64,000 nt of DNA from Candidatus Absconditabacteria bacterium (lineage in GTDB: Bacteria; Patescibacteriota; Gracilibacteria; Absconditabacterales; Absconditicoccaceae): NCBI GenBank assembly GCA_028693445.1, contig JAQUVI010000005.1:62001-126000 (forward strand). Reading direction: 5' to 3'. The position numbers were made by a program, and so were the translations under genes. Under the pieces are notes generated by a model. It was not told the origin of the DNA and did no database searches. It worked only from the letters and a program-made list of their open reading frames with translations. Below, piece after piece: positions 12,295 through 64,000 of the stretch (positions are counted from its first letter, which is position 1; every line of letters begins with the position of its first letter).

Positions 12295-12341
12295 GAGGGA
12301 TTGGCCCCGCTAAAGCGGGATAAATTCCGTGGTAACATGAC
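12295..12341 (+). repeat. partial copy of the adjacent tRNA 5' half, interrupted
   Basis: GAGGGATTGG at 12295-12304 and GTGGTAACATGAC at about 12329-12341 repeat the first half of the tRNA at 12344. Between them sits CCCCGCTAAAGCGGG, a small hairpin. The anticodon arm is absent, so this copy cannot be a functional tRNA. Confidence 0.7.
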
Positions 12342-12343
12342 AA

Positions 12344-12414
12344 GAGGGATTGGTGTAGTGGTAACATGACGGTCTTCGGAACCGCAGTCGGGGGTTCAAT
12401 CCCCTCATCCCTCG
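12344..12414 (+). tRNA. tRNA with anticodon UCG, probably tRNA-Trp(UCG) for CGA/CGG
   Basis: 71 bases plus encoded CCA (12415-12417). Acceptor GAGGGAT/ATCCCTC, D arm GTGT/ACAT, anticodon arm ACGGT-CTTCGGA-ACCGC, variable loop AGTC, T arm GGGGG-TTCAATC-CCCTC, discriminator G73. Anticodon UCG reads CGA and CGG, normally Arg. In this genome CGA stands at invariant Trp sites, and the anticodon-stem sequence around CGGTCT and AACCG and G73 resemble bacterial tRNA-Trp, so tryptophan charging is the best inference. G1-C72 differs from the A1-U72 of E. coli tRNA-Trp, and the D arm also resembles tRNA-Gln, so Arg or Gln identity is not excluded by sequence alone. Confidence 0.8.
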
Positions 12415-12486
12415 CCATTTATAGGTAAGCAGAAATGCTTATTTTTTTTGATTTTTAAAAATTAATATATCTATTAAGATTAAGTT

Positions 12487-37399: not shown

Positions 37400-38947
37400 A
37401 TGATTCAAAAAATCAGAACGTATACGCATCTGGGGCTTCAAGGATATGAAATTGTGGTAGAAGCGGATGCAAATAATTCTATTCCTTCTATTGAAATTAT
37501 TTGACTGCCTGATGCGGCTATCAAAGAATCCAAAGAAAGGATTAGAGCGACGTTTAGAAATGTCGGAATTACGATTCCCAATAAAAAGTTTATTTTGAAT
37601 CTGGCACCTTCGGATATCAAAAAGGTTGGGACAAGTTTTGACCTGCCGATGGCAGTGGCACTTTTGTTTCTGATATTTGAGGATCATGTTTTTGTTCCAA
37701 GATTTTTCGGGGAATCTTTGTTTTTTGGAGAGCTTTGACTTGATTGATGTTTGAAGCCAGTTAATGGTCTTTTGCCTTGCGTGATTGATGCGGTGAAACG
37801 TGGCTATACGACATTTTTTATCCCAGCAGAAAATGTGTATGAGTTGGAGTATATTCCTTGAATAACCTTGTATCCGCTTGCTCATTTCCAACAAGTTTTG
37901 GAGTTTTTTTTGTATGGCAAGGAAATTGAAGCGGTAAATCAACCAAAGCAACTTCCTGAAATGAATTATAATGTTGTTTGAGGTGTTGATTTCCAGCATA
38001 TCAAAGGACTACTTTTTGCTAAGAGAGCTTTGGCTATTGCTGCAGCATGATTTCATAACTTATTGTTGGTTGGAGCTCCAGGAAGTTGAAAGACATTGTT
38101 GAGTAAGGCAATCCAATGAATATTGCCACCTTTGTCATTTGAAGAAATATTGGAAGTAAGTCAGATTTATTCTGTTGTGTGAAAATTACACAAAGATCAG
38201 CCATTGATTTTGCAAAGACCGTATAGGCAAATTCATCATACGGCTTCTAAGATTTCTATTGTATGATGAGGTGCTGCGTTGACGCCAGGAGAAGTGAGTT
38301 TGGCACACAAAGGAATATTGTTTTTTGATGAATTGACTGAGTTTCCAAGAGAGGTTTTGGAAGTACTTAGACAGCCATTGGAAGATAGTGTTATAAATAT
38401 TTCTAGGGTATCTGGAAGTATCCAATATCCTGCAAATTTTATGTTTGTTGCGTCGATGAATCCTTGTAAATGCGGATATTATAAAGACAAAGATAAGCCA
38501 TGTATTTGTTCATTTGCGGATATCAAAAGATATCAAAGTAAAATATCTGGACCACTTTTGGATAGAATTGATATGATTTTGGAAATACCAAGAACGCCAG
38601 TTGATAATTTATTGGACGATAATTTGGAGGAAACTTCGGCAAATTTTAGAAAAAAGGTTTTGTCTGCTCGAAGTTATCAGCAAAAAAGATTTCAATGACT
38701 TTGATTGACAGCAAATGCTCATATGAAATCCCAACATTTATCTGAGTTTGTACCTTTGGAATCCGCGTGTACGGATTTTCTCAAAGAAGCTGCTTATAAA
38801 CTTACTCTTTCGCCAAGAGTAATTCATAGAATTATTAAACTTGCTAGGACTATTGCTGATATGGAAGGAAAGGAACATGTCGATATTCCTTGTTTGGCAG
38901 AGTCGTTGCAATATAGAAATAGGACTTTTTTTGTGGAGTCAGAGTAA
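37400..38947 (+). CDS. comM: ComM/YifB family Mg-chelatase-like ATPase
   Basis: 515 codons, ATG 37400 to TAA 38945. An N-terminal ComM-type domain (IEIIGLPDAAIKESKERIR), Walker A LLVGAPGSGKTLLSKAI where one loop Gly is UGA, Walker B KGILFFDELTEF, the SIVGGGAALTPGEVSLAH region, zinc-like NPCKCGYYKD ... CICS, and the C-terminal Mg_chelatase_C. ComM is a hexameric helicase that promotes branch migration in natural transformation. Most Arg are AGA; one CGA in SA-CGA-SYQQKR lies where Arg is usual, the main exception to the CGA=Trp reading. Confidence 0.9.
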
Positions 38948-53453: not shown

Positions 53454-55778
53454 TTATTTACTTATTTTGGCAAAATTCCAAAAGAGAAGAAGGAAAAAAA
53501 TTGTCATAATAATTGGTGCTATGATTGATAACCAGTTTTTCTTTTTTGGATGAAAGAATTTGAGGAGTAATGAATTTATAACAACTGAAACTGAGCTCAT
53601 TGCCATAGCTAACCCTGCAAACTCTGGTTTGAGTGTGATTCCTCGTACAGCGAGTGCCCCGCCTGCTATAGGTATTCACATGCTGTTATACAAGAGCGCA
53701 AAGAACATATTTTGTCTGATTTTTCAAACCGTTTCTTTGCTGAGTTTGATGGCGGTGAGGACATCTGAGATATCGTTTTTCATAATAACTACTCCGCCAG
53801 CTTCTATCGCGACATCGGTTCATGAGCCCATGGCGATTCCTACATCAGCTTGTGTAAGGGCTGGGGCGTCATTGATTCCATCTCCTACCATGACAACTTT
53901 CCAGCCCTGTGTCTGTAATTCTTTTACTTTTGATGCTTTATGCTCTGGTAATACTTGTGCAAAAACGTTTGTTATTCCTACTTGTTCAGCTATTGCTTGT
54001 GCTGTTTTTTGATTGTCTCCGGTGATCATATATGTCTTGATTCCTCGTTTTTGTAAGGTTTTGATAGCTGCTGCTGAATTTTCTTTGATTGTATCTGCAA
54101 CGGCAATTGTTCCTATCATTTCTTTGTCTGTTGCTATCAACATAACTGTCTTACCTTGTCATTCCATGTGTTCTATTTCGTTGAGGTTTTCTAGTTGTAT
54201 TTTGTTTTCTTGTAGTAAGATTTTGGTTCAGCAATAAAAAATCTGGTTATTTATTTTTCATTTTACTCCTTTTCCTGGGATAGCTTGGAAATCGTGGATT
54301 GTTTGTATTTCTGTATTTTGGGATTGTCCATAATTGACTATAGCTTCCGCTAATGGATGTTCAGATTTGATTTCTAAGCTTGTTGTTATACTTATGATTT
54401 GTTCTTTGGTATAATTGTTTGAAGTTGTGATGTTTGTTACTGTTGGTTTTCATTCGGTAATTGTACCTGTTTTGTCAAAAATGATAGTGTCTATTTTACA
54501 TAGGGCTTCCAATGGTTCTCATCCTTTGATTAAGATTCATTTTTCGGCTCATTTCCCTGTTCCTACCATGATCGCTGTTGGTGTGGCGAGTCAAAGTGCA
54601 CATGGACAAGCGATAACTATTACTGCTGAAAAATAAAGAAATGCGGTTTCGAATGATGCTCAACCTACGGTTAGCCGAAGCGCAAATACGATGATAGCTA
54701 TTCCGATAACTACGGGCACAAAGATTCCAGATACTTTGTCTGCGAAACCTTGTATAGGTGCCTTTGATCCTTGCGCTTCTTGAATCAATTTGATAATTTG
54801 CGCAAGAGCTGTTTCATCTCATATTTTGGTGGCTTTCATTTCAAAACTTCATAATTTATTTATTGTTCATCCAAAAATCTTTGAATCGATGGTTTTTTCT
54901 ACAGGTAAACTTTCTCAGGTTAGCATTGATTCATCGATGCTTGAGTGTCATAATATAAGGATTCCATCTACAGGTACTTTTTCTCCAGGTTTAACTAAAA
55001 TAATATCTCCTTTTTTTACTTGTTCTATTGGAATTTCCTTGAATAAATCGTTTTGTTTGATTCTTGCAGTTTTGGGTGCAAGGTTCATTAGTTTTGCGAT
55101 AGCCTGTGATGTTGATCCTTTGGCTTTTGCTTCCAAATATTTTCATAAAACAACAAACATAATTAATAATCCTGCTACTTCAAAATATATTCCTGGAATC
55201 ATCATTCAATCAAGTCATATTATTGATTGTTTTTCGTATATAAATATTGCAAGATGATAGAGACTATATATATATGCAACTCATGTACCAATAGCTATTA
55301 GGCTGTACATATTGAATGTCTTCATTTTGAGAGCAGATCGAGCTCCTTTGAAAAAGTCCGATCATATGATAAATAATATGGGTGTAGTACATACAAAAGA
55401 TATTAAAGCTGCCCATGGCATTATACTTTCTTTCCATGGGAGTATTCAAGGTAAAAGATCGTAGAACATAAATATAATCATAGGTATACTCAATAAAAAA
55501 GCAGACCAGAATTTTTTCTTTCGATAGTTTGTTTCTTTGTTTCTTTTGTCCATTTCATTTGTTTGTTTGTCTTGAAGTTTTCATTTATATCCAGCTTTGT
55601 TGATAAGTTCTATTAAAGTGTTTTCTATGCCCTCATTGGCTTTGATAACTGCTTGTGAAGATGAGAAATTTACATTAGCTTCTTGTACTCAATCGGTTTT
55701 TTTGAGGGTATTTTCTATAAAAAGAGCACAAGAAGAACAGTGCATTCATTCTATATCTATGTTTATAAGTTTAGTCAT
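53454..55778 (-). CDS. copA: copper-exporting P1B-type ATPase
   Basis: 774 codons, ATG 55778 to TAA 53454-53456. One N-terminal heavy-metal domain (GMHCSSCA), eight-helix membrane part, phosphatase motif TGES, the metal site CPCALGLATPT, phosphorylation site DKTGTIT, HPLAEA and MVGDGINDAPAL. CPC indicates Cu(I) export. One helix reads IIVFALWLTVG with Trp from CGG (54675-54677), a usual Trp position. It ends the csoR operon. Confidence 0.95.
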
Positions 55779-62670: not shown

Positions 62671-64000
62671 TTAGATTACAATATTTAGAATTTTTCATGG
62701 TATATAGATTATTTTTTTTGGTTCTCATGCTAGATGTGTGGAAAGTTTAGGGTCTGATTTTACTATTTGCATTACATCTTCCTGTGTTGTTTCTTTGTTG
62801 ATTTCAATATCTCATCTTATTTTACCATTAAATTGTACTCAGATTTTTACTGTGTCTGAGACTAAATAACTTTCGTCATAACTAGGCCAAACTGTAGTAG
62901 TGAAAACAGAATAATTATTTCCTAAGTTTTCCCAGAGTTCTTCTGCGAGATGTGGAGCAAAAGGCGCTACAAGAATTACTAGTTTTTCAAATGTATCTTT
63001 GGAAATTATTGTTTGATCAGTTAAGTGATTTACCAAAATCATCAGCTGAGAAATAGCTGTGTTGAATTTGAATCCATCGATATCTTCGGTGAGTTTTTTG
63101 ATCGTTTGATGAAGTTGGGTAAGATTTGTTTTTGGCTCTTCTTGGTCGCTGATTTTGTCTTTGAGAGCAACGATTTTATCTAGGAATTTTTTGATTCCTT
63201 TCATTCCATTTGTGCTTCGTGCAATTGCTTGTTCAAAAGGGCCCATAAACATTTCGTAGGTTCTGAGTGTGTCAGCGCCATATTCTGCGATAATATCGTC
63301 AGGAAGCACGACATTTCCTCGTCTTTTGGACATTTTACGACCGTCTTCAGCCATAATTAATCCTACTTTGTGATATTTTTCGAATGGTTCTTCTTTTGTA
63401 ACAACTCCTATATCAAATAAGAATTTTTGTCGAAATCTAGCGTAAATCATATGTCTGGTTACGTGTTCTGCACCACCAACATAAACGTCTACATTTCCTC
63501 GGTATTTTTCATTTTCTGGACTGACGAGTTGTTTGTCGTTTTTGTTGTCCATATATCTGAGTCGGTATCGACTAGAACCAGCTCGTCCTGGCATGGTGTT
63601 GGATTCTCTTTTTGCTGGTTTTCCGCATGCTGGACAGGTGGTGTTTATTCGTTCATTGATGGCAGCAAGTGGTCATTCTTCTGTTCCTGTTGGCGCGTAA
63701 TTTTCTACGTCTGGAAGAGTGAGAGGGAGATCTGATTCGTTCATAGGAACGATTCCACAATCATCACAGAAAACCACTGGAAAAGGTTCTCCTCGGTATC
63801 TTTGGCGGGAGAATACTCGGTCTTGGATTTTGAAGTTTGCTTTTTTACCTCCGATATTATTTTTTGATAATCGTTCTTGCATTTTTGCGATAGCCTCGTC
63901 AGAAGTGAGTCAGGTAAATTCTTTAGAATAGAACAGTTTTCATTTTCAAGTTACTGGTTTGTCGTCATTTTCTAAACGTTTTCTGGCATATTCTTGTGTT
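62671..64000 (-). CDS. leuS: leucyl-tRNA synthetase, C-terminal part
   Basis: Runs off the right edge; stop TAA 62671-62673; about 443 residues present. Conserved Trp sites are CGA: MPGWAGSSWYWLRYMD (63583, 63568, 63562), QDWVFSRQRYWGEPFP (63817, 63793) and AWSTNG (63217). Signature KMSKR followed by GNVVLPDD, CDDCGIVPM zinc-like motif, an anticodon-binding HLAEELWENLG, and the LeuRS C-terminal domain. It charges leucine; the missing N-terminus holds HIGH and the editing domain. Confidence 0.95.

Follow-up and report, generated by a model that had tools for sequence, protein, structure and literature searches.

NCBI lists an Absconditabacterales genetic code. Reassignment of sense codons in bacteria is rare, and the evidence for it rests on computation. 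For Absconditabacteria, CGA and CGG were predicted to encode tryptophan and UGA to encode glycine, and the tRNAs of this group were judged consistent with these meanings by the same rule of a G at position 73 and a nucleotide other than A at position 20 (Shulgina & Eddy 2021, PMC8629427). The portions of that paper available to us include an examination of MetRS from the AGG clade, and no TrpRS analysis for Absconditabacteria was seen in them. An earlier note on the DNA described here proposed that a tRNA gene with a UCG anticodon is the decoder that such a code needs. We compare this gene, and the genome that carries it, with the published code.

The UCG tRNA gene and the tRNA set of the genome

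The gene lies in a window of 64,000 nucleotides, the whole stretch of DNA that the earlier note covers. ARAGORN predicts a tRNA gene at 12344-12417 with TCG as its anticodon, and Rfam model RF00005 matches 12344-12414 with 59.9 bits (gathering 29). By both programs, the boundaries 12344-12414 proposed earlier are exact except for the encoded CCA at 12415-12417. The features in this region are as follows.

12344..12417, + strand: tRNA gene, anticodon UCG, CCA encoded; predicted tRNA-Trp(UCG) (ARAGORN; Rfam RF00005; comparative identity elements)
12376..12378, + strand: anticodon TCG (positions 34-36), reading CGA, and through wobble CGG (gene position 33 in ARAGORN; sequence)
12414..12414, + strand: discriminator G73, Trp-type, with A73 in 12/13 sister tRNA-Arg(UCG) (sequence, comparison)
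12295..12341, + strand: 5' half of the tRNA, copied partially and imperfectly (GAGGGATTGG ... GTGGTAACATGAC) and interrupted by the hairpin CCCGC-TAAA-GCGGG (repeat search; fold z -2.3)

The sequence carries G1-C72, G5-C68, U20 and G37, and the G73 named in the earlier note is indeed found at 12414. Judged against bacterial tRNA-Trp, the major identity element G73 and the minor element G5-C68 are present, G1-C72 stands in place of the minor element A/G1:U72, and the anticodon is UCG rather than CCA, as expected for a reassigned decoder. The bacterial tRNA-Arg element A20 is absent, its position being occupied by U20. Positions 27 and 43 (A-C) do not pair here or in the UCG tRNAs of relatives G001, G002 and G017, and they lack a standard pair in 7 of the 22 UCG tRNAs of the family. 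The partial copy at 12295-12341 is directly upstream of the gene. The UCG tRNA of G017 is preceded by a related tRNA-like fragment, and none was seen in the 83 bases upstream of that of G002. This element is probably a tRNA remnant outside the decoding mechanism.

The genome comprises 1.17 Mb in 11 contigs, with 36 Rfam tRNA matches. Its parsed tRNA set contains one UCG tRNA, namely the gene described above, and one tRNA-Trp(CCA). There is also a single copy of tRNA(CCG) (C1:182491-182563, minus strand), which carries A1-U72, G73 and U20. The earlier note has the UCG tRNA reading both CGA and CGG; tRNA(CCG), which it leaves unmentioned, is another decoder of CGG outside the window. The Arg tRNAs with anticodons UCU, CCU and GCG keep A20 and A73.

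A UCA tRNA is encoded at C8:40122-40195 of this genome (G000), with G1-C72, C2-G71, G3-C70 and U73. ARAGORN labels it 'SeC', but it has a Gly-type acceptor stem and U73. TGA corresponds to glycine in 482 of 532 conserved columns. No RF2 match above the prfB cut-off was found in the genome; the best prfB match stays under that cut-off and is RF1, so that RF1 was found and RF2 was not. This genome therefore combines UGA read as glycine, a Gly-type UCA tRNA and no RF2, as in the Absconditabacteria code.

Meaning of CGA and CGG

The meanings of these codons were assessed by translating ~99% of the genome with UGA as glycine and with CGA and CGG masked, and by aligning reciprocal best hits to two references. 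These were G039, a relative from the same class that uses UGA as stop (364 proteins), and E. coli K-12 (128 proteins, ~257 kb of conserved regions). Codon log-likelihoods were computed with substitution rates learned from the remaining codons.

CGA aligns with Trp at 94 of 323 sites in G039, a 31-fold enrichment (39-fold for TGG), and at 29 of 90 sites in E. coli, a 40-fold enrichment (41-fold for TGG). Where the two references agree, CGA corresponds to Trp in 17 of 29 columns and to Arg in one, and this single Arg codon belongs to an ORF that runs antisense to a longer one of 481 codons. Seen from the other side, 66 conserved Trp columns are occupied by TGG in 32 cases and by CGA in 17. Log-likelihoods against G039 place Trp ahead of Arg by 574, of Gln by 438 and of the next best amino acid, Tyr, by 220; against E. 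coli the corresponding values are 154, 153 and 60. CGT, CGC, AGA and AGG still encode Arg. These data decisively establish that CGA encodes Trp in this genome, where its frequency is 37.7 per 10,000 codons across the ORFs that have homologues.

Inside the window, CGA is aligned with Trp at several places, including four in leuS.

62671..63882, - strand: part of leuS; CGA occupies the conserved Trp positions 63217, 63499, 63793 and 63817, W in both references (alignments)
53454..55778, - strand: heavy-metal P-type ATPase; its CGA at 55338 and its CGG at 54675 correspond to Trp in G039 (alignments)

The earlier note had claimed that CGA is present at conserved Trp sites, which the enrichments above bear out, and that it is absent from conserved Arg sites. 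The latter is nearly but not strictly true in the window, because the CGA at 38669 aligns with an Arg of G039; the 55 other Arg-aligned sites carry AGA, AGG, CGT or CGC.

CGG is rare (47 of 132,002 codons). At 28 sites aligned with G039, Trp is ahead of Arg by 25.5 log units and of Tyr by 5, and the 8 sites aligned with E. coli single out no amino acid. CGG leans to Trp. The code named in the earlier note, which had been published before, is accordingly found here in its CGA and UGA parts, with CGG tending the same way.

Identity elements, origin and competing readings

Forty genomes were searched by pattern and by similarity, which yielded UCG tRNAs from 22 members of the same family and from 13 genomes of the sister families. 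Those of the family all carry G73 (22/22) and never A20 (0/22), and 19 of 22 have A/G1:U72. In contrast, sister UCG tRNAs carry A20 (13/13), A73 (12/13) and either G1:C72 or G1:U72, and by these elements are ordinary tRNA-Arg. Family CCG tRNAs resemble the family UCG tRNAs, with G73 in 21/21, A20 in none and, as parsed, A1:U72 in 20/21, and the family tRNA-Trp(CCA) has A1:U72 and G73 in 14/14. The loss of A20 and gain of G73 are thus clade-wide, and the identity switch belongs to the clade. G73 without A20 in CGA/CGG tRNAs, a feature of the Absconditabacteria code, is present here as throughout the family. The G1-C72 pair, which had been listed among the changed identity elements, does exist. 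However, within the family it is confined to this genome and the relatives G002 and G014, and is a late local change outside the recoding, most relatives keeping the Trp-like pair.

A separate observation concerns the sister genome G034 (C5, L268), in which a TrpRS frame contains many UGA codons and the CCG tRNA has A1-U72 and G73 plus A20. Its TrpRS anticodon loop is of the standard type, and its UCG tRNA was not found by the pattern search. G034 is possibly an intermediate.

The anticodon stem (CGGTC/...ACCG) had been cited as resembling that of tRNA-Trp. It is present as described, but it is not diagnostic of Trp, because the CGGTCTTCGGAACCG arm is also found in sister tRNA-Arg(UCG) genes (G027, G029, G030, G032, G035 and G038) and the genome's own tRNA-Trp(CCA) carries GGGAGTCTCCAAAGCTCC as its anticodon arm. 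If anything, this arm would favour descent from tRNA-Arg(UCG). The D arm matches neither tRNA-Arg(UCG) nor tRNA-Trp. Mean identities of the family UCG tRNAs to family CCG tRNAs, sister UCG and CCG tRNAs, tRNA-Trp and tRNA-Gln all fall between 0.49 and 0.60, and such overall similarities favour no particular origin. In a 2026 paper about anticodon stems of 4 bp, the tRNA-CCG of Absconditabacterales is described with 5-bp stems (PMC13092985); 'UCG' has no match in its main text.

Several features could be taken to indicate that the gene is an ordinary tRNA-Arg(UCG) and that CGA still means Arg: ARAGORN labels it Arg by its anticodon, C35 and G36 are Arg-type, and sister lineages possess tRNA-Arg(UCG). 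This is highly improbable when the only doubly conserved Arg column of 29 is an antisense artefact, Arg falls 574 log units below Trp, and A20 is lacking from all 22 family tRNAs. A mixed outcome, in which CGA is read mainly as Trp and in a minority as Arg through ArgRS, draws on the retained C35-G36 and on CGA codons at Arg sites, 27 of 323 for G039 (1.3-fold) and 10 of 90 for E. coli (1.6-fold). There is no clear Arg excess, because TGG shows comparable levels at such sites (0.9-fold and 2.1-fold, respectively, its excess being confined to the E. coli comparison), and we consider ambiguous decoding very unlikely. Nevertheless, U34 and G36 differ from the CCA anticodon read by bacterial TrpRS, and G1-C72 departs from the minor Trp element A1-U72. 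Because U34 and G36 are not Trp-type and C35-G36 is also Arg-type, some charging with Arg may occur.

A tRNA-Gln(UCG), comparable to the CGG = Gln reassignment in Peptacetobacter, is hardly credible. G73 also occurs in tRNA-Gln, and family UCG tRNAs are about equally similar to the tRNA-Gln(UUG) of this genome (0.585) and to family tRNA-Trp (0.56). However, Gln is excluded by the codon data (438 log units), and a tRNA-Gln would be expected to have a weak 1:72 pair, A37 and U35, none of which is present. The candidate tRNA-Trp(UCG) of the earlier note is the reading best supported by the codon meaning, by the identity elements in 22 relatives versus 13 sisters, by the lack of RF2 and by the Gly-type UCA tRNA. 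On these sequence grounds, it is very likely that the UCG tRNA is charged with Trp by the single bacterial-type TrpRS, and that it reads CGA, and CGG by wobble alongside tRNA-CCG, as Trp.

TrpRS and comparison with known systems

In the E. coli TrpRS-tRNA structure, Glu155 contacts G73 and Gln152 stacks; C34 is read by the backbones of Tyr270 and Gly271, C35 by Thr225, Asp226 and Lys274, and A36 by Ser227 and the Thr225 backbone (PMC12135181). This genome encodes one copy of TrpRS (TIGR00233, 281.8 bits; cut-off 176.75), which is bacterial-type. Glu155, Thr225 and Lys274 are identical in 23/23 TrpRS sequences of the clade, and Ser227 is kept in 5/23; the corresponding figures are 63/79 for bacteria sampled broadly and 12/14 for the other members of the class. 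A tree of all TrpRS sequences recovers the clade as monophyletic, and when columns are ranked on it by excess change within the clade, 226 and 227 come 2nd and 7th of 293. Gly271Lys was considered as the strongest clade-specific change and rejected. Two full-length TrpRS genes are present in the family member G013 (C1:8115-9086 and C5:255139-256104).

The earlier claim that TrpRS must have co-evolved finds modest support in the acceleration at residues 226 and 227 beside frozen Thr225, Lys274 and Glu155. The data are supportive rather than decisive, because Ser227 is not universal and varies in some standard-code bacteria, because Asp226 reads C35, and because Lys271 is shared with standard-code Patescibacteria. 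Moreover, since C35 is common to all three anticodons, the change at Asp226 is not explained by base 36. Taken alone, the TrpRS evidence is weak.

We tentatively propose, at just short of an even chance, that one TrpRS serves CCA, UCG and CCG tRNAs through an anticodon loop (including Ser227, at base 36) freed from constraint, and that the gene for the UCG decoder arose from an old tRNA-Arg by a switch of identity rather than as a copy of tRNA-Trp. An ancestral tRNA-Arg(UCG) would have lost A20 and exchanged A73 for G73, ArgRS would reject the product for want of A20, and TrpRS, reading base 36 less strictly, would charge it with Trp.

The view that this gene is a further case of the published code, and no new phenomenon, is well-supported. 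Having a clean case across the whole genome, together with the decoder and a testable change in the TrpRS loop, opens a direct route to biochemical proof, and annotation of this group's proteins must translate CGA as Trp. With the Absconditabacteria code, as described in PMC8629427, this genome has in common the meanings of CGA and UGA (with CGG leaning the same way), low GC, AGA as the main Arg codon, CGA exceeding CGG, and UCG and CCG tRNAs with G73 and without A20. The UCG tRNA differs in its G1-C72 and unpaired A27-C43, and CGA usage here, for which another set was counted than in that paper, lies at the top end of the range. For Anaerococcus and RFN20 Bacilli the same paper describes CGG as Trp, likewise an Arg-to-Trp reassignment with a G73 tRNA without A20; unlike here, CGG alone is reassigned there, by tRNA-CCG, and tRNA-UCG is missing. 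The UCG tRNA shares G73, G5-C68, the lack of A20 and C35 with canonical bacterial tRNA-Trp(CCA), from which it differs in its UCG anticodon, G37 and G1-C72, and its D arm and anticodon stem are unlike those of the genome's own tRNA-Trp.
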